Positions 35,642 to 45,709 of a stretch of 64,000 nucleotides of DNA are shown here, in pieces. The stretch comes from Parvibaculum sp. (GTDB lineage: Bacteria; Pseudomonadota; Alphaproteobacteria; Parvibaculales; Parvibaculaceae), in contig NZ_JAHBYN010000001.1 in NCBI RefSeq assembly GCF_019635935.1, positions 1,240,001-1,304,000 on the forward strand. The letters are read 5' to 3'. Both the position numbers and the translations under genes were made by a program. The notes beneath the pieces were generated by a model that saw only the letters and a list, made by a program, of their open reading frames with translations, was not told the DNA's origin and did not search any database. Within the stretch, counting starts at the first letter, position 1; each line of letters begins with the position of its first letter.

Positions 35642-35984
35642 CCCAATCTCCGTCGTTATTTCGCTCTGCCCCCCGACAATACGACGGGTGGCCCGGACCC
35701 CACCGGTAAGCCCTCATAAGTTTAATTTCATCGCATGGAAGGCCTTGAACCATCAACCCGAATTGGCGGAATCCGGAAACTTCTGGCGGATGCGTCACAT
35801 GAGAGCAACACTGTTGCCCCGGGGAATCGGCCGGAATCGTCCAACCGCCTTCCATCTGCCCCGAAAGATCATGGTCTGGCGATTATCAGCCAAAGGATTA
35901 AGAGCCCCTTTACCAATCCGCCCCAATATGAGGCAAATGGGCGTTTTTATTGACGCCTTGCGACCGCACACAATTGAGGCCGAC
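35642..35984. promoter_or_regulatory. 343-bp divergent intergenic region
   Basis: Contains no convincing gene; it lies between the OmpA-like lipoprotein (minus) and the sigma-54 regulator (plus), so it should carry promoters for both. I see no confident -35/-10 pair or repeated operator. A candidate short leader ORF on the plus strand runs in the same frame as the regulator, but its residues are not conserved-looking. Confidence 0.4.
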
Positions 35985-37517
<1,533 letters not shown>

Positions 37518-37952
37518 AAAACTTATCCTTCCGTGAGACAGCGAACGGCGCCGGCGCAATCCGGCGCCGTTTTGCTTTTGGGGGGAAGTTTCGGGGCCCG
37601 CGCGCCCGCCCGGAATACCATCCGTCTACGGATGAGAAGGCGTTTTTGACAGTTCGATGACAGCGTTTTCAGCCTGTTTCGACGCCACTGTCACCGAACT
37701 GTCAAAAATCTGTCACAAATGGTTTCGGCGGCCTTTACGCACGCCCCGCGCACCCGAAAACCACCCGCCCCCTTGCGGGATAAGTCCAACTTATCCCCGT
37801 GTGGCCGGAAAGACATGTGGCAGGAACACATGTGGCTTGTGTGCATCAGCGGGGATAAGTGGCAATTCCTGATTTCATTGAGAAGTTCGGACACAAAATC
37901 GACGCCGTTGACGAGGAGATGGTCGCGCTTCGGGCAAATCTAGCTTCCGCCG
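37518..37952. repeat. Composite non-coding element, copy B (convergent intergenic region)
   Basis: 435 bp with no gene, between the regulator and the NDT-like gene, which converge. It has ATCCGTCTACGGATGA (37620-37635), the ACTGTCACCGAACTGTCAAA... block (37687-37719, 33 nt, one mismatch to copy A) and, 24 nt before it, the same word inverted (37643-37663). A perfect dyad GGGATAAGT-CCA-ACTTATCCC lies at 37777-37797, with GGGGATAAGT again at 37851-37860 and ACATGTGG twice at 37813 and 37828. Copy A (2586-2899) holds the same blocks. Function unknown. Confidence 0.75.
37543..37574 (+). terminator. Terminator after the NtrC-type regulator
   Basis: Stem ACGGCGCCGG / CCGGCGCCGT with loop CGCAAT and a TTTGCTTTT tail. 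Confidence 0.85.
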
Positions 37953-38792
37953 CTAGTGACCCAGAATAGTCTGCATTCTGGCTTGCAAGGCTTCGGTCAG
38001 CGCAGCGCGCCCTTGGTCGTTGTTGAGATAGCGAACATGGCGCAGATACCGAAGGTCGAACGGTATGTCCTGTTCGCTCTGCGTTATAAGGATCACTTCC
38101 CGCCCAAGTGTATGGGCGATGCCCGCTTCATAGAACACGTTCGGGTTTCGACCCGAGCAGTCGCATACGACGACTCGGGAACGATCAATTAAGGCAACCA
38201 CGTCCTGAATAATCGCGGCGTTCTCCCAGATGTCATCGGCGCGCCTGCACCGAAGCCCTGCGGCGTCTGCAGCTTGCCGTATGCTGTCGTAAACCGAGTT
38301 GAACCCCGCATCGAAGGGCATCATCGCCGATGCAAGAGCAGGCTCGATGTTTTCATGTTCAGGGATTTGAAAGACCGTTGGGCGCTGCCGACGCGGTCGA
38401 ATATTGCGGAGCAGAAATCGGTAAAGGTCCACGTCTTTCACAGCCCAATGATTGCGCGAAAACTCAAAATCACGGGGCATGTCGAGTGCCATACGATTCG
38501 CGTAGATCATGTTGTTTTGGAGAGGTGGAACCTCAGTATCAAGCGTGTATTCGAATGACACCTCATTGCCCACCACGCGCGCCCTGTTGATCTGGCCAAC
38601 ATAAGACATCTCGTCTCGGATGCCCTCCGGCATGAATAAGCAAGGCAGCGCCCTCAAACGATCCAAAAGCAAGCTCCCGTTCTGCCGAAACTGATTTGCA
38701 ATGTGATCTTCGGTGTACTCGAAGAACCTGCCGACGGGCATGGCCTCTTGACCGCTAGTCCAGTCAACTGAACGCATAATGAGATTGAACAT
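37953..38792 (-). CDS. Protein with C-terminal nucleoside-deoxyribosyltransferase-like (TIR-related) domain
   Basis: 279 residues. The C-terminal half (from 157) has MMPFDAGFNSVYDSIRQAAD, AGLRCRRADDIWENAAIIQD, VVVCDCSGRNPNVFYEAGIA and HTLGREVILITQ. The motif D-x-S-G-x-N-P-N-V-x-Y-E with Glu222 is the active-site segment of NDT-like proteins, distantly related in fold to TIR domains. Standalone members are frequent in prokaryotic conflict systems, where NAD or nucleotide cleavage is expected. The N-terminal 150 residues (MFNLIMRSVDWTSGQEAMPV) are unrecognised and may be the sensor. The HEPN gene lies 72 bp upstream on the same strand. Confidence 0.7.
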   Translation of the reverse strand: MFNLIMRSVDWTSGQEAMPVGRFFEYTEDHIANQFRQNGSLLLDRLRALPCLFMPEGIRDEMSYVGQINRARVVGNEVSFEYTLDTEVPPLQNNMIYANRMALDMPRDFEFSRNHWAVKDVDLYRFLLRNIRPRRQRPTVFQIPEHENIEPALASAMMPFDAGFNSVYDSIRQAADAAGLRCRRADDIWENAAIIQDVVALIDRSRVVVCDCSGRNPNVFYEAGIAHTLGREVILITQSEQDIPFDLRYLRHVRYLNNDQGRAALTEALQARMQTILGH

Positions 38793-38864
38793 TATTTCCT
38801 CCCTCGATCTTGCCTACTGTATCGGAACAGACGCGAATGGCGGCACACTCGGACGCTGAAGAGG

Positions 38865-40433
38865 CTATCGCTTCCAATCATCTTCCCAAGACATCAGCGG
38901 CATATCGACAACCAGATCCGATTTCGACCCCAGGCGGCGTGCGCGCTCTTCCATATGCACCGCCAATGGCAGGTATATCATTGCTGCGCGCGTGATCTTC
39001 AGCAGTCGTACCGCTTTGGAAGCAAAATCGTCACTGGATATGGAGTACCCGATCGAATCTGTACTTGGGTCACGGATAGCGGCTGATGCCCAGCTCTCGT
39101 GAACCTGCAGATACTTATGCTCAAGATGGTTGCGGATATTAAAGATTTGCTGAGCGTCTGGGTTAGTGGCGCGCTGAAACCTGTCGTCAAACAAATCTTT
39201 TGAAAGCCAAAACAGCCCATGAAGAGGCCAATTCTCGTAGTCCTTGAAGCGGTTATGAAGTTTGGGTTTCTCAACCGTATGGTCGTACCAGACTGATCGG
39301 AACCCAACCCGATGCGGCTCCGTCCCGAGCCGCCAGTAGCTGTTGATGAAATAGCCGACCTTGTCGAGGATGGAATAGGCGAGCCGGAAGGCAGCGCGCA
39401 TCTTTTCAGTTGCCATGGAGAAGCTGGGATAATTGAGAGTGTTGGTGAGACGCACTCGGCGATCAGCGAAGTGTACGTAGTCGCGCGGCTGTCCCTCGTA
39501 GAGAAGTAATCGTGCAAAGGCGTATTCTTGCTTCATCTGGCTGTAAAAGCCGATGATCGACGGCATGCCTGCTTCTTCCAAGCCAACGCGGAGCGATGGC
39601 AGCATCAGATAGTCGCTCGCCGCGATCGGATGTGGCCCCAGATCGTTCAGAGGGTTAAGGAAGAGCCGATGCCCGAGACACCAGCGGCGGTAGGCCTCCT
39701 CCGCCTTGCTGCGCCCCAACCTGGGACTGTCTAGATCCAGATCGCTGGCGATTGCTGCAAGGTCGAGCCGTTCATCGATCTCGCGGGCTCCGGTTCGGAA
39801 ATGCTCCCTGAATGCAGGGGGATAGTCCGAGTCCCAAAGCGCTCCTTTCGCTGTGGCCGAAACAAAAGCGCGGTGCGCCGCAAGCAGCAGCACTTCGCGG
39901 TCATAGCCATCTTCCGATGCTAGCCCGTAATATTTCAGGCCGTCGCCGCGGCTACCATGGGCCATGGCAAAATTAGGCAAGATATCGAGTGCACGATCCC
40001 AGAGCTCTATAGCCTCGATGAACCTGCCGACCTCGTTGAACTGGATTCCCAGGTTCGTAAGAATCTGACAGCGGCGAATCTCATTGAGGCTCGCGAACCC
40101 GTCATGATTCTTGGCCATGAAGAGCGCAAGAATCTGTTGCTGGCGATCGGGTTGCTCCCACTGCCTAGGCTCAACCTTTGCTTCGATGACGCGCTTTGCG
40201 CCCCAAGCGTTCGCCCTGAAATAGTGGAGCGTCGCTTGCTGTGCCGGTGTCAGACTACGCCGGTTGATCTCCTTCAGCATCCCGAAGGCGCGTTTAATTC
40301 CAGCCTCCGAGCGCACTTCGGTGGACAGATCGATCAGCCGTGCAACGCAATTGATGGCGTCACCGTCTGATAAAGTGTGTGTGGGCGCCCTGATCAGTTC
40401 GCCAATGTCAGTGTCATGGGAATATCGGGACAT
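38865..40433 (-). CDS. TPR-like protein with C-terminal LA2681-type HEPN domain
   Basis: 522 residues. The N-terminal half looks like TPR repeats (GIQFNEVGRFIEAIELWDRA, LDILPNFAMAHGSRGDGLKY). The C-terminal half matches the LA2681-like HEPN domain: PLHGLFWLSKDLFDDRFQRA, then NIRNHLEHKYLQVHESWAS. This holds the R-x4-H catalytic motif (Arg434-His439) of HEPN ribonucleases. HEPN proteins act as toxins in toxin-antitoxin and anti-phage systems. The less GC-rich sequence suggests acquisition. It likely forms an operon with the NDT-like gene downstream. Confidence 0.75.
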   Translation of the reverse strand: MSRYSHDTDIGELIRAPTHTLSDGDAINCVARLIDLSTEVRSEAGIKRAFGMLKEINRRSLTPAQQATLHYFRANAWGAKRVIEAKVEPRQWEQPDRQQQILALFMAKNHDGFASLNEIRRCQILTNLGIQFNEVGRFIEAIELWDRALDILPNFAMAHGSRGDGLKYYGLASEDGYDREVLLLAAHRAFVSATAKGALWDSDYPPAFREHFRTGAREIDERLDLAAIASDLDLDSPRLGRSKAEEAYRRWCLGHRLFLNPLNDLGPHPIAASDYLMLPSLRVGLEEAGMPSIIGFYSQMKQEYAFARLLLYEGQPRDYVHFADRRVRLTNTLNYPSFSMATEKMRAAFRLAYSILDKVGYFINSYWRLGTEPHRVGFRSVWYDHTVEKPKLHNRFKDYENWPLHGLFWLSKDLFDDRFQRATNPDAQQIFNIRNHLEHKYLQVHESWASAAIRDPSTDSIGYSISSDDFASKAVRLLKITRAAMIYLPLAVHMEERARRLGSKSDLVVDMPLMSWEDDWKR

Positions 40434-40554
40434 TCCGTATCTTATTCAGGAATGCTGCAAGCGACACTTGAATTCGAACGCGCGTGGTGGATCGGCCTAT
40501 TCCTGTGGCATCTCCTAAGCAAAGAACAACATGACAATAATCGTCTGTTCGTCT

Positions 40555-40695
40555 TCAACGCGCTGGCGGCTCGACATCTGGCGGGCTTATGGACGCACGG
40601 AAGCTGGCTAGCTCCGCGTCGCTCGGGTTCTGCGCTTCGGGGATGAACCTGATCGTCTCGGTGATATCGCGACACGGGACAAAATCGATGCTCAA
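40555..40695 (-). CDS. Candidate 46-residue ORF coupled to the TumA-like gene (TTG start)
   Basis: TTG overlaps the stop of the HTH gene (TTGA). It reads SIDFVPCRDITETIRFIPEA, QNPSDAELASFRASISPPDV, then EPPAR and stop. The residue mix is protein-like (not the Arg/Ala shadow seen elsewhere), so it is either a small coupled gene or the tail of a longer lost protein. No family recognised. Confidence 0.3.
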   Translation of the reverse strand: MSIDFVPCRDITETIRFIPEAQNPSDAELASFRASISPPDVEPPAR

Positions 40696-41051
40696 CCTGC
40701 CACCCCAATTTCCACATCGAGCCGGATGCGGTCGTAAGGGAAGCTGACGCCTTCTTCCGTGCGGTCGATCATGCCGGCGTTGATCAGCGCGGTGATGTCG
40801 CTGTGGACGGCCTTCACGTCGCGGCCGATGCGGCGCGCGACCTCGCGCATGCTGAGCGGCCCCTGCCCCGCCAGCGCCTTGACGACTTCGAGGCGCGCGG
40901 GCGAGAGCACACGGTGCATGTCTTCGTAAGAATGGAAAATCAGCTCGTGGCGCGGCTTGACGCGCTTGCCCGCCCCCGCATCCTTCCAGGCTTTCAGGAA
41001 ACCGGATTTCATGTCGGCGAATTCGCCGATCCTGACGCGCAACGTGGTCAT
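40692..41051 (-). CDS. TumA-like (COG4190) HTH regulator, probable orphan antitoxin
   Basis: 119 residues. MTTLRVRIGEFADMKSGFLK, HELIFHSYEDMHRVLSPARL, VARRIGRDVKAVHSDITALI (winged helix) and FPYDRIRLDVEI follow the pattern of the TumA antitoxin of TumE/TumA systems. In those loci the toxin gene sits immediately upstream; here there are two operator palindromes and a repeat element, and no TumE-like ORF. So either the toxin was lost or the regulator serves the downstream HEPN/NDT genes. Twin TGTTGTC-N6-GACAACA sites suggest autoregulation. Confidence 0.75.
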   Translation of the reverse strand: MTTLRVRIGEFADMKSGFLKAWKDAGAGKRVKPRHELIFHSYEDMHRVLSPARLEVVKALAGQGPLSMREVARRIGRDVKAVHSDITALINAGMIDRTEEGVSFPYDRIRLDVEIGVAG

Positions 41052-41072
41052 TCGAGCATCCTTCGATTTTGA

Positions 41073-41092
41073 TGTTGTCGATGATGACAACA
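41073..41092. promoter_or_regulatory. Operator palindrome 1 (TGTTGTC-N6-GACAACA)
   Basis: Perfect 7-bp arms around GATGAT, starting 22 bp before the TumA-like ATG. An identical-arm site lies at 41101-41120, centres 28 bp apart. Confidence 0.7.
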
Positions 41093-41100
41093 TCAAGAAG

Positions 41101-41120
41101 TGTTGTCGATAGAGACAACA
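41101..41120. promoter_or_regulatory. Operator palindrome 2 (TGTTGTC-N6-GACAACA)
   Basis: Same arms as operator 1 around GATAGA. Duplicated operators are expected for cooperative autorepression by an antitoxin-type regulator. Confidence 0.7.
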
Positions 41121-41123
41121 CTG

Positions 41124-41293
41124 CACCCGGACGGCCCCCTCACCCTTCCCAACACAGCTTCGCTGTGTTGGGCCCCTTCCCTCTCCCCGCTGGGGAGAGG
41201 GAGCGAAGAAACGCACTCATATTTCCCTCTCCCCGCCGGGGAGAGGGAGGGAGACGCCGCAGGCGTCGGAAGGGTGAGGGGAGCGTCCGGGTG
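41124..41293. repeat. 170-bp MITE-like element with 26-bp imperfect terminal inverted repeats
   Basis: Left end CACCCGGACGGCCCCCTCAC...CTTCC, right end GGAAGGGTGAGGGGAGCGTC...GGGTG. Two internal CCCTCTCCCCG...CGGGGAGAGGG hairpins and AACACAGCTTCGCTGTGTT. This belongs to the widespread CCTCACCCTTCCC-type intergenic repeats. It sits exactly between the operators and the channel-tail scar. Confidence 0.75.
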
Positions 41294-41301
41294 GGCGTCA
41301 G

Positions 41302-41424
41302 CGCGACCGCGTCTCCATCAGCGCCCGCAGTTCCGCGAGTTCCTTGCGCAGCGCGTGCACACCCTCAAGCGTCGCCTCGCGTTCGGCGTGCGCGCGGCGT
41401 TCGATTGCCGCGCGTTCGGCGCGG
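41302..41424 (-). pseudogene. Duplicated 3' end of the sodium channel gene (fragment)
   Basis: 41307-41424 matches 44202-44319 over 118 bp with 5 mismatches, same orientation. The frame reads HAEREATLEGVHALRKELAE then LRALMETRSR and stop, against LRALVETRLGGG in the full gene. No start or upstream part; the other side abuts an mgtE remnant. Confidence 0.85.
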
Positions 41425-41606
41425 CCTCGATGGTGCTGATCGTCGTCATCGGCAGCCTGATCGGCATGACGCTGCCTTTCGTCCTGACGCGCTTCAACCT
41501 CGACCCGGCAACCGCCAGCGCGCCGCTCGTCACCTCGATTGCGGATTCGGCGGGCGTCATCGTCTATTTCGCGATCGCGACGGCCTTCCTGCCGCTACCG
41601 GGCTGA
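41424..41606 (+). pseudogene. mgtE: C-terminal remnant of a MgtE-type magnesium transporter
   Basis: 60 residues: SMVLIVVIGSLIGMTLPFVL, TRFNLDPATASAPLVTSIAD and SAGVIVYFAIATAFLPLPG, the last two membrane helices of MgtE. The 5' end is cut abruptly at 41424, where the channel-tail copy begins on the opposite strand. It overlaps the 3' end of the convergent minus-strand gene by 12 bp. Confidence 0.8.
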
Positions 41607-42419
41607 GGCGGCCGGCCGCGTCACCGCATCGACGGGCACATAGCCGCAACCGCCTTCCACAAGGCAGACGCGGAGCCAGCCGTCGACTTCCCAGTGCGGC
41701 GCCTCCGCCCGCTCGTCCCCGGGGACATGGACGAGGATCGAGGCGCCGGCCCGCTCGAACCAGGGCGCGTCTTCCGCGGGGCCGAGGCGCAGCGGCATAT
41801 CCGGGTCGTGCGCGATGCGGTAATGCGCGGGATCGAGCCCCGCAGGCAGCGTCCCTTCGGCGGTGAAATGCTTGCCGAGCGCCGCGTCGCGCGCATCGCG
41901 GAAGGCATTGCTGCCGAAGGAAGACGGATAGGGTTCCCAGAACCGGGTCGTGAAATTTTCAGGCTCGTCCGGATTCCGGAACGTCACGGCGATACCGCCC
42001 GAAGCGACCGAGACGAAGAGCGGCCCCACGCTTTCGGCACTGAATACGGGGCGCAGCGGATCGTCTTCCGGTGCGAAGATCAGGAGCGTCTGGCTGTTGT
42101 CCGCTCGCTCGCAGACAAGCGCCACCACGGGCGCCTCGCCGATCCCGTCGAGAAAGGGAAAGTGACCCGTGCCGGGGCCCGCAAGTCCGCAGCCATCGAG
42201 CGGATAATGCGCGATGGTTTCCTCGCCGCCATCCGCGGCCTTGAAGAAGACGAGATCGCGCTCGAAGGGACCGCGCCAGAGAAAGCGGTAGAACACATCC
42301 TGCCGGAATGTCTCGCGCGGCTCTGCGGCGGCGGGAAAAGGATCATCGGCAAGCGCCGGCAGCGCCGCACATGCCAACCACAGAAAGCAGAAGAAGGCCC
42401 GGCTCATTACGCCGCTCAT
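41595..42419 (-). CDS. Exported protein of unknown function, coupled to the gene upstream
   Basis: 274 residues with a signal peptide (RAFFCFLWLACAALPALA). The mature part is beta-rich and acidic (ERDLVFFKAADGGEETIAHY, ESVGPLFVSVASGGIAVTFR) and ends with an SH3-like segment (WEVDGWLRVCLVEGGCGYVP). Unrecognised. The ATG overlaps the upstream gene's stop (ATGA), so the two are probably co-expressed and co-function in the periplasm. Its stop overlaps the mgtE remnant. Confidence 0.7.
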   Translation of the reverse strand: MSGVMSRAFFCFLWLACAALPALADDPFPAAAEPRETFRQDVFYRFLWRGPFERDLVFFKAADGGEETIAHYPLDGCGLAGPGTGHFPFLDGIGEAPVVALVCERADNSQTLLIFAPEDDPLRPVFSAESVGPLFVSVASGGIAVTFRNPDEPENFTTRFWEPYPSSFGSNAFRDARDAALGKHFTAEGTLPAGLDPAHYRIAHDPDMPLRLGPAEDAPWFERAGASILVHVPGDERAEAPHWEVDGWLRVCLVEGGCGYVPVDAVTRPAASAR

Positions 42420-44083
42420 CGATAGCCCGGAATGACATAGGGCTGCGGCTGCGGCAGGGTTTGCGGCGTAAAGGCCGGCGGCGCTTCGTAGTAATAGCCG
42501 CCGCCATCGTCCCATTGCCGCGAGGCATCGAGACGCCTGAAATACTCCTCGCGCCCCCGGTTGAACCGCCTGATCTCCTCGTTCAAACGTTCGACGTCGT
42601 CGCTCCGCATTCCGACGCGCTCGTTGGCGAGCCTGATCAGATCACCGATCATGCCGTCACATTCACAGACGGTCGGCATGACGCGGCTGATCCTTCGGTC
42701 GGCGCCTTTCGACCATTGGCCGCCGAGACCGACGACCAGATTCTCCAGCGCCGACCAGTCCCGCTCGCTGGCCCGCTCAAGACAGCTGTTCCATTCACGG
42801 ACGCGCCGCTGGGCCTCATCGACCTCGTATTCCGGCGCATCGACGCGCAGCAACGGCGGCGACCCGCAATTCGTATCCGGAAAACGAAAATCGCGTATCC
42901 TTGCCTGCAATTCATCGCGCTCCTTATGGCGCTCATTCTGCTGAGTTCGCACCACCTCACGCGCTGCTTCGGCTAAACTCCGGCGGCGCTCCGCTGCCAA
43001 TCGCTCTGCCTCGGCTTCCGCTTCGGCCGTTGACTGCGGCGCGGCGGAAGACGGCCTCGCCGCCGCACGCTCTATCGCCTCATGCAGATCGGCTTGCCTT
43101 AGCTCGGCTATTTTCTTGCTGAATCGCTCCCGCAGGGAGGCTTCGTTCGAGCCGTCTGCCTTCAACGCGAAACCGTAGGCCGGGTCGCAAAGCCATTCTT
43201 CTTCCGTTTCCTTGCCGCGCTGAAAGCAAATCCGCTGCCGCATGGGCGGATCAAACTCTCCCGACGGCGTGAGAACGGGATGTATCACGACCCATCCATT
43301 CAGCCATCTGATAAACATGGTACTTTCCATATAGAGCATCTCGCCGATCCAGACGACGAGTTCCGATGTGGCTTGCTGCGCCGCCCCCGAGGGCGGCCTC
43401 GATATGGTGGTAATGAGCGGCGGTCCATCATCGCCTGGCGCCGAAAAGTCGATCTCTATCCATTTCGCCTGCCTCAGGCCCTTCTCCCGGATTTCAATGA
43501 CATGCTGCCACCCCTTGACCTCGGCGGCTTCGACTTTCCAGAATCCGAAACTGCGCAATTCCCCCTCAAGTTCGCCGCCGCGCATCGTGCCCTCGATACG
43601 CACCCGGTGTCTTGCCGTCTCACGACGATCTCCGTCCGCTGAGGAGGACTCCATTTCGGCGACGGCGACGAACGGGCCTTCCGGCCGGCCCTGTCTGCAT
43701 GTGCCCTCAATGAGTGTCACGCGGACAGTGTCGAAGCCCGATGCCGCGCCATCGGACAAACCTGGGTCCCGATCAGCCGCCTCCTTGTTCCTGCCGACTG
43801 CAATCTTCCACTTCGTCTCTTCGCTCATGTCGCAGGCGATGCTCGTCGCCGCGGTGAACCAGCGATCGGGATTGTTCGACATCTGCGCGTGACGGCCGAT
43901 GATCTCCTCCTGCCATGCGTCGAGCTGGGCATCGCCGATACGCGGGTGCTTGAGGAACGAGGCTTCCGTGTAGTCCGAAGCGGCGAGCGCCGGCATTGCG
44001 GCAATGAGGGGAAGTCCCAGGGCGAGAAGACAGGAGAGCAGGCCGGCACGGGCACGCAAGATGGACGAAAGCGCAATGCACAT
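42416..44083 (-). CDS. Exported protein of unknown function with coiled-coil region
   Basis: 555 residues with a signal peptide (LLSCLLALGLPLIAAMPALA, cleaved near ALAAS). Residues about 60-330 carry pairs of Cys (IACDMSEET, EGTCRQGRP, RICFQRGKE, WLCDPAYG). Then comes a Glu/Ala/Arg-rich coiled coil (AEAEAEAERLAAERRRSLAE) and a C-terminal Tyr/Pro-rich tail (YYYEAPPAFTPQTLPQPQPY). No family recognised. GGGAGGGG stands before the ATG at 44083; the longer frame is unlikely. Coupled to the following exported-protein gene. Confidence 0.7.
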   Translation of the reverse strand: MCIALSSILRARAGLLSCLLALGLPLIAAMPALAASDYTEASFLKHPRIGDAQLDAWQEEIIGRHAQMSNNPDRWFTAATSIACDMSEETKWKIAVGRNKEAADRDPGLSDGAASGFDTVRVTLIEGTCRQGRPEGPFVAVAEMESSSADGDRRETARHRVRIEGTMRGGELEGELRSFGFWKVEAAEVKGWQHVIEIREKGLRQAKWIEIDFSAPGDDGPPLITTISRPPSGAAQQATSELVVWIGEMLYMESTMFIRWLNGWVVIHPVLTPSGEFDPPMRQRICFQRGKETEEEWLCDPAYGFALKADGSNEASLRERFSKKIAELRQADLHEAIERAAARPSSAAPQSTAEAEAEAERLAAERRRSLAEAAREVVRTQQNERHKERDELQARIRDFRFPDTNCGSPPLLRVDAPEYEVDEAQRRVREWNSCLERASERDWSALENLVVGLGGQWSKGADRRISRVMPTVCECDGMIGDLIRLANERVGMRSDDVERLNEEIRRFNRGREEYFRRLDASRQWDDGGGYYYEAPPAFTPQTLPQPQPYVIPGYR

Positions 44084-44186
44084 GAAAACCCCTCCCGCGC
44101 CGCCTTCGGGCGCACCGCATGTCCCCGTTTTTAATGAGGGAACATCGTCCGCAATTCCGCGGCATGAGGCAAATCTTTTCGGCCCG

Positions 44187-45068
44187 CTATCCGCCGCCGA
44201 GCCGCGTCTCCACCAGCGCCCGCAGTTCCGCGAGTTCCTTGCGCAGCGCGTGGACGCCCTCAAGCGTCGCCTCGCGTTCGGCATGCGCGCGGCGTTCGAT
44301 TTCCGCGCGTTCGGCGCGGGCGCGCGCCTCGCGTTCGTCCTGGGCGCGGGTGTGTTCCTCCTCGTGCAGCGCCTGCATCGAATTGACGATGATGGCGATG
44401 AAGAGGTTGAGCACCATGAAGCTCGTCATCACGATGAAGGGGACGAAGAAAATCCAGGCGTAGGGGTAGACCTCCATCACCGGGCGGACGATGCCCATCG
44501 ACCAGCTTTCGAGCGTCATGATCTGGAAGAGCGAATACATCGATCCGCCGATGGTGCCGAACCAGTCGGGGAAGCTGGCGCCGAAGAGCTTGGTCGCGAG
44601 CACCGCACCGACATAGAAAACGAGGAACAGCACCGCGATGATCGAGCCCATGCCGGGCAATGCGCCGATCAGCGAGGCGATAACCTTGCGCAGCGACGGC
44701 ACGACGGAGAGGAGCCGCAGCACGCGCAGGATGCGCAGCGCGCGCAACACCGAGAACGGCCCCGCCGCCGGCACCAGCGCGATGGCGACGATGATGAAGT
44801 CGAAGACGTTCCATCCGTCGGTGAAGAAGCGCCAGCGCCGGGCATAGAGCTTCAGCGCGAGTTCGACGACGAAAATCGAAAGCGCGATGCGGTCGAGCGC
44901 GATCAGCAAAGGCCCGGCCGCCTGCATCGCCGAGGCGGAGGTTTCAAGGCCGAGCGTCACCGCATTGACCAGAATGACCGCGGTGGCGAAATGCTGGAAC
45001 AGCGGCCGCTCGACAAGCGCCGCGACGCGGGCGCGCAAGGACGCCGGTTGGGGTTCGGTCGTCGTCAT
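44187..45068 (-). CDS. BacNav-type voltage-gated sodium channel
   Basis: 293 residues, six-helix single-domain channel. S4 voltage sensor RALRILRVLRLLSVVPSLRK has arginines at every third position. The pore loop reads TLESWSMG, the selectivity signature of prokaryotic sodium channels (NaChBac TLESW). S6 is FMVLNLFIAIIVNSMQAL, followed by a cytoplasmic coiled coil (RAERAEIERRAHAEREATLE) used for tetramerisation. The inner-membrane channel probably passes Na+. The start at MTTTEPQPASL is chosen over a longer frame. A copy of its 3' end is present at 41307-41424. Confidence 0.92.
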   Translation of the reverse strand: MTTTEPQPASLRARVAALVERPLFQHFATAVILVNAVTLGLETSASAMQAAGPLLIALDRIALSIFVVELALKLYARRWRFFTDGWNVFDFIIVAIALVPAAGPFSVLRALRILRVLRLLSVVPSLRKVIASLIGALPGMGSIIAVLFLVFYVGAVLATKLFGASFPDWFGTIGGSMYSLFQIMTLESWSMGIVRPVMEVYPYAWIFFVPFIVMTSFMVLNLFIAIIVNSMQALHEEEHTRAQDEREARARAERAEIERRAHAEREATLEGVHALRKELAELRALVETRLGGG

Positions 45069-45073
45069 GGGGT

Positions 45074-45709
45074 TCACACCAGATGCTTGACCATGCGGAT
45101 ATGCGGGGGCACGGCGTGGGAGGCGGCGATCTTGGGCACCGTGGTTTCGGCAAGCCGCTCGAGCCCCATGCGCTCGTAGAAGCGCACCGCCGGGTTGACG
45201 CTCGCGACATCGAGATGGAGCGACGCGCAGCCGGCGGCCCTGGCGCGCGCGAAACAATCGAGAAGCAGCTTTTCGCCGATGCCGCGGCCGCGCGCTTCAG
45301 GGTGCGCGGAGAGGAAAAGCAGGTACCACGCATCGTCCGGCACTTCGGGAAAGAGCCAGGGGATGTGTCCGGCGACGGTGGGGAGATGCGCCAGCAGCTC
45401 CGGCGTTCCCATCTCGGCCATCGCCATCATGCCGGTGCCGAATTCCTGCGCGTAGAGCGCCTGCGGGAAGCCGAGCGCGATGCCGGCGAGGCGGCCGTCA
45501 TGGAGCGCCGCCCTGGCGTGGACATGCGAGAAAGCCCCGCCTTCGCGGAGCCACAGCGCCGAGGTGATTTTCAGGAAGGTGTCGAAGTCGCGGTTGTAGA
45601 GACAATCGAAGACGTAAGAGCCGGTGTCGTAGATCAGCCTTGCGGCTGTTTCTTCCTCGGCGGGTTCCGCCTCCGCCAGCGTCACCGTCTCCGCATTAAT
45701 GATTGTCAT
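45074..45709 (-). CDS. GNAT family N-acetyltransferase
   Basis: 211 residues. Motif A: LSAHPEARGRGIGEKLLLDC, then SLHLDVASVNPAVRFYERMG. The N-terminal 50 residues are extra compared with short GNATs. Located 5 bp upstream of the sodium channel gene on the same strand, so they are probably co-transcribed. Substrate unknown. Confidence 0.85.
   Translation of the reverse strand: MTIINAETVTLAEAEPAEEETAARLIYDTGSYVFDCLYNRDFDTFLKITSALWLREGGAFSHVHARAALHDGRLAGIALGFPQALYAQEFGTGMMAMAEMGTPELLAHLPTVAGHIPWLFPEVPDDAWYLLFLSAHPEARGRGIGEKLLLDCFARARAAGCASLHLDVASVNPAVRFYERMGLERLAETTVPKIAASHAVPPHIRMVKHLV

Follow-up and report, generated by a model that had tools for sequence, protein, structure and literature searches.

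A 64,000-nucleotide stretch of a Parvibaculum genome (contig NZ_JAHBYN010000001.1, positions 1,240,001 to 1,304,000 of the forward strand; referred to below as the window, with positions numbered from its first letter) contains a variable slot at approximately 37863–40691. The slot carries minus-strand genes for a TPR-HEPN_LA2681 protein and an NDT-like protein, and it adjoins a gene for a TumA-type winged helix-turn-helix antitoxin (tumA). This slot is part of a defence hotspot, and we consider it quite probable that it holds two independently acquired single-gene modules of the abortive-infection type beside a resident tumA. The two products would be triggered by phage and would act on RNA and NAD+, respectively, with sensor roles assigned to their noncatalytic parts. 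Genes, domains, conserved residues, the hotspot, the lack of co-occurrence, and domain swapping were all computed. An earlier note on this DNA had proposed that two effectors form one system under a repurposed TumA-type regulator; the positions that it gave for four minus-strand open reading frames (ORFs) were exact, and all four are intact.

We searched for the flanking DNA in 27 genomes of the same genus and then compared these directly with the window by blastn (L164–L168) and junction alignments. Homology of the window to its sisters broke at 37862 on one side (L166, L167) and at the tumA stop codon on the other (L164, L165, L166, L168), and the DNA in between had no counterpart at this site in sister genomes. 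The slot lies between tumA and a conserved gene for a response regulator with a sigma-54 activator domain (35982–37517, plus strand, start approximate). The conserved flank on the other side is an ion-channel-like gene (44187–45080, minus strand, start approximate), which adjoins the slot in G013, G016, G022, and G025. At the same site, G013 carries intact TumE (PF20126, 2.4e-14) and TumA followed by ABC-3C with CTD9, MC5, and an LmuB-like ATPase; G016 carries a methyltransferase, a type II restriction endonuclease, GIY-YIG, and Vsr; G022 carries a cyclic oligonucleotide-based antiphage signalling system (CBASS) composed of CD-NTase, E1-E2, JAB, and NucC; and G025 carries pAgo with SIR2 and has no tumA. 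G012 has a truncated tumA, with methyltransferases on separate contigs. Cargo at this defence hotspot thus differs among genomes of one genus, and the site supplies sister-genome controls; to our knowledge it has not been described. The conflict-related nature proposed earlier for the locus was borne out, given that both slot genes belong to conflict-linked families, look acquired, and occupy a defence slot.

The composition of the genes delimits the acquired DNA. GC content at third codon positions was 0.625 for the NDT-like gene and 0.642 for the HEPN gene, compared with 0.833 for tumA and 0.75–0.88 for most neighbors (the exception being the gene at 42416, at 0.647). Because the value for tumA is host-like and those for the two slot genes are low, the acquired low-GC stretch ends before tumA. 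The lower GC content noted earlier therefore holds for the HEPN and NDT-like genes, and tumA is not part of the low-GC stretch.

The TPR-HEPN_LA2681 gene (38865–40433, minus strand) is an intact ORF of 522 codons whose product matched PF18733 with E = 1.9e-74 and 249.9 bits against a cut-off of 27. The HEPN_LA2681 domain is encoded at 38949–39575 (minus strand), and a weak TPR_1 match, below the Pfam cut-off, covers residues 124–155. The RNHLEH motif (R434…H439; 39117–39134, minus strand) is present as the earlier note had stated, and R434, N435, L437, E438, and H439 were invariant in an alignment of six homologs. Given this conservation, the protein is predicted to be an RNase acting through R434/H439; LA2681 has been placed among the active HEPN families and noted to occur in fusion with TPR (PMC3710099). 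The family is rare, being found in 3 of 289 genomes of the class, and scans of viral contigs revealed no relatives. Related large helicases adjoin HEPN_LA2681 genes in three loci (L024:3362-6841, L031:2532-5906, and L038:6450-9977), and a helicase-related gene lies near one in L202. The helicase is possibly a real partner of HEPN_LA2681 and is absent from the window.

The NDT-like gene (37953–38792, minus strand) is an intact ORF for 279 amino acids. In an AlphaFold model, its product comprised two domains of high confidence, with a weak linker between them at residues ~130–150. In Foldseek comparisons, the C-terminal domain (residues ~150–279; 37956–38345, minus strand) resembled the NDT structure 8qc0 (E = 4.8e-5), human DNPH1, and the TIR domains of SPARTA and SARM1, and the PADLOC model "Effector TIR" matched the protein at 6.9e-9. 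A sequence search of the PDB with the NDT-like alignment gave no meaningful match. Within the motif that had been singled out in the earlier note, D211, N216, N218, Y221, and E222 were invariant in an alignment of 37 homologs. On the basis of the model, the protein belongs to the NDT/DrHyd-TIR fold superclass, with Glu222 (NPNVFYEAG; codon at 38127–38129, minus strand) as its predicted catalytic residue. The C-terminal domain also occurs behind AbiJ_NTD5 (PF18865) in L012, and a Sphingorhabdus plasmid (L027:6001-7621) carries tandem NDT-like genes behind a restriction-modification system, the first with the same N-terminal domain as the window protein and the second with AbiJ_NTD5. Fusions of AbiJ-NTDs to NDT and TIR have been reported (PMC3710099), and DrHyd, TIR, and Frg have been discussed as NAD-directed immune effectors (PMC9503650). 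The protein is a predicted N-glycosidase, for which we infer NAD+ as the likeliest substrate because in other proteins its N-terminal domain comes with TIR, CAP12-TIR, or FRG. Two other assignments were rejected. No reverse transcriptase was present among the scanned ORFs of the slot, which excludes a retron effector, and Pfam and PADLOC scans found no CD-NTase in the slot, which excludes a CBASS effector; G022 has one at this site.

The N-terminal domain of the NDT-like protein (residues 1–130; 38403–38792, minus strand), a candidate sensor or adaptor, matched nothing in Pfam, NCBIfam, or PADLOC, and literature searches on it returned nothing on point. PHROG 4962, to which no function is assigned, weakly covers the domain together with FRG. 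The domain was found fused to FRG (L033, L224, L225), to TIR_2/SEFIR (L223 and L187, an E. coli plasmid), to TIR_2 (L188, L229), and to CAP12-TIR (L189, L226), and in L227 it and CAP12-TIR are encoded by separate adjoining ORFs; assignments for L190, L194, L198, L222, L225, L228, and L230 were made by eye from the sequence only. About 50 E. coli plasmid records contain the domain, and a profile search detected it in 10 of 349 genomes of the phylum. Residues R22, P50, E56, and W116 were invariant across 24 diverse rows, and G66 and H115 were also noted. The model of the domain was confident (predicted local distance difference test score of 95.7), and its matches to PDB structures were weak, the hits being YTH (E = 0.018) and the Lon N-domain (E = 0.05). 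YTH and the Lon N-domain have PUA-like folds. Given this weak likeness, the modeled fold hints at a PUA-like domain that might read modified bases, which we regard only as a lead.

In viral contigs L231–L240, the same domain forms the C-terminal part of a protein of ~215 amino acids, B, encoded by a conserved four-gene prophage cassette, A-B-C-D (for example, L233:3839-8948 and L231:3673-7906). Genes A (~305–340 amino acids) and B were present in all ten cassette loci, and gene C, encoding a helix-turn-helix protein (HTH_17), was present in eight. The last gene, D, encodes AAA_13 (PDC-S06-like) in seven of the ten and an SNF2 helicase in two. A scan of L233 assigned neither A nor B to a Pfam or PADLOC family. 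The cassette has the look of a defence system, so far undescribed, in which one effector can take the place of another.

The chances are about even that the N-terminal domain is an undescribed and widely shared front end that senses infection and is coupled to at least five types of effector (NDT-like, FRG, TIR, SEFIR, and CAP12-TIR) as well as to the prophage cassette. Such a common front end would allow bacteria and prophages to exchange killing modules. If the domain is a sensor, it would alone account for the trigger of several NAD-directed defence proteins encoded by single genes, among them the TIR/SEFIR proteins that many E. coli plasmids carry, and of the prophage cassette with its swapped ATPase and helicase effectors, so that one trigger screen could be read across many systems. 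The domain matters more than the gene pair, whose products are two further members of conflict families already known.

The proposed mechanism would operate as follows. On infection, the TPR part would release or assemble the HEPN domain, which would then cut RNA by means of R434/H439. The undescribed N-terminal domain of the NDT-like protein would detect an infection signal and activate the N-glycosidase of the NDT/DrHyd fold, which would use Glu222 to split NAD+ (another nucleotide being less likely), and growth would stop. TumA would be a remnant of an earlier TumE–TumA pair at the site that has kept its own operators.

The tumA gene (40692–41051, minus strand) matched the HVO_A0114 winged helix-turn-helix family (PF25212, E = 1e-25). 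It was present in 5 of the 27 genomes, each time at this site, with copies in G013 (91% identical) and G016 (84% identical) and truncated copies in G012 and G022. TumE (PF20126) had no match in the window genome and was found in only one of the 27 (G013). Both operators previously described upstream of the gene are real palindromes, TGTTGTC-N6-GACAACA, at 41073–41092 and 41101–41120 (together 41073–41120, minus strand); the same sequence occurs as a single site before tumE in G013 and as a single site before tumA in G016. The simplest reading of these sequence features is that TumA is an orphan antitoxin, probably still autoregulated, that is resident at the site. Its membership in the acquired module was ruled out by its native composition and by its presence in genomes without the pair.

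Whether the two slot genes are independent modules was weighed against several alternatives. HEPN and the NDT-like protein might instead constitute one two-effector system, such as a sensor-RNase plus an amplifier, under the control of TumA, as the earlier note had proposed. The genes adjoin each other on the same strand with a gap of 72 nucleotides and share an atypical composition, and TumA with its operators lies directly upstream. We scanned 80 NDT-like loci, taking as much as 10 kb to either side of the gene and 1.26 Mb in total, and found HEPN_LA2681 (E ≤ 1e-3) or TumA in none of them; nor did any of 13 other HEPN loci, drawn mostly from plasmids, contain an NDT-like gene, with the same model recovering the window gene at 1.2e-140 as a control. 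The 13 distinct HEPN loci derive from 14 stretches, given that L032 and L185 are one plasmid. The only recurrent neighbors of NDT-like genes were integrases (11 loci) and resolvases (8 loci). Elsewhere in its genome, G022 has a HEPN homolog (46%) without an NDT-like gene, and G040 has an NDT-like gene (48%) without HEPN. Because homologs of the two proteins did not co-occur in these loci, the notion of a single system is unsupported, and with TumA being native in composition, located beside unrelated cargo in sisters, and paired with intact TumE in one of them, we judge it quite unlikely. A different role for TumA would be that of a landing-pad regulator, with cargo inserted downstream being read through from the TumA-autoregulated promoter and the orphan antitoxin being retained because it restrains cargo expression. 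Cargo is indeed downstream of and co-directional with tumA at four of the five tumA-bearing sites (the window, G013, G016, and G022), so that control of cargo by TumA is possible, though not conserved, and the window and G016, which have lost tumE, still carry operators. However, the tumA of G022 has lost its first part and the operator; in G012 the gene next to the truncated tumA is on the opposite strand; G025 has cargo without tumA; and the comparison comprises only five sites. A landing-pad role is therefore unlikely.

Other alternatives concern the activity of the slot proteins. Rather than a toxin, the NDT-like domain might be a sensor that binds nucleotides or an N-glycosidase of metabolism, such as a DNPH1-like nucleotide sanitizer. 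The Foldseek hits, which include DNPH1 and nucleoside deoxyribosyltransferases, are in keeping with this suggestion, and phage proteins of this fold include CMP and hydroxymethyl-CMP hydrolases. We nevertheless found it improbable given that mobile elements, integrases, and restriction systems accompany NDT-like genes, that the effector domain is fused to AbiJ_NTD5, and that the N-terminal domain is joined to TIR and FRG effectors in other proteins. It is very unlikely that the slot is a decaying island with an inert pair: TumE has been lost and TumA is truncated in some sisters, but both HEPN and the NDT-like protein are full length and all of their predicted catalytic residues are conserved. 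The interpretation as two independently acquired modules has points against it as well. The single strand, the 72-nucleotide gap, and the similar foreign composition of the two genes make co-transcription and joint acquisition possible; the pair was found in one genome only, and its two genes could have come together very recently; the NDT-like protein scored 14.5 bits against PF05014, below the cut-off of 28.8; and its predicted substrate, NAD+, is drawn by analogy.

Further features surround these genes. The short ORF of 46 codons that overlaps the tumA stop (40555–40695, minus strand), described earlier as a coupled ORF, exists but is probably no gene: it matched no family in Pfam, NCBIfam, and PADLOC scans, homologs were absent from the 80 NDT-like loci, and it sits past the homology break. 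The lack of homologs and this location rule it out as an antitoxin. The recombination scar mentioned in the earlier note corresponds to a direct duplication of 123 nucleotides from the end of the ion-channel gene (41307–41429 and 44202–44324, 94% identity). These repeats flank an insertion of ~2.8 kb that G022 lacks; its two genes (41595–42515 and 42416–44284) belong to no known family. Most genomes of the genus contain partial copies of a palindromic dispersed element that lies at 41124–41293 in the window, and a short dispersed repeat of ~30–50 nucleotides at 37685–37735 has dozens of copies across the genus.

Several known systems resemble parts of the locus. The TumE–TumA toxin-antitoxin system (PMC10584680) shares with the window the TumA-type winged helix-turn-helix protein and palindromic operators, and it is intact at this site in G013, whereas the window genome is without TumE. 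The HEPN protein corresponds to HEPN_LA2681 (PF18733) of Anantharaman et al. 2013 (PMC3710099) in that TPR is followed by an LA2681-type HEPN with a conserved R-x4-H; genes of this family elsewhere adjoin helicases, a type IIG restriction-modification system, or an AAA ATPase, or stand alone, whereas that in the window adjoins the NDT-like gene. Retron-Eco1, as presented where PMC12548924 cites Carabias 2024, has an NDT/DrHyd NADase effector similar to the window protein in its NDT-type fold, conserved catalytic Glu, and defence context, but the window slot has no reverse transcriptase and its NDT-like gene stands alone with its own N-terminal domain. In AbiJ-NTD/effector single-gene modules (PMC3710099), an N-terminal recognition domain is swapped among nuclease, TIR, NDT, and HEPN effectors. 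An NDT-like effector of the window type occurs with AbiJ_NTD5 in other genomes, whereas the N-terminal domain in the window falls outside AbiJ-NTD1–5 according to Pfam and has no family entry. Finally, the effector domains of the PADLOC candidates PDC-S15 (FRG), PDC-S35 (CAP12-TIR), and bSEFIR are found behind this same N-terminal domain in L033, L189, and L187, respectively, with the PADLOC models spanning the effector parts alone.

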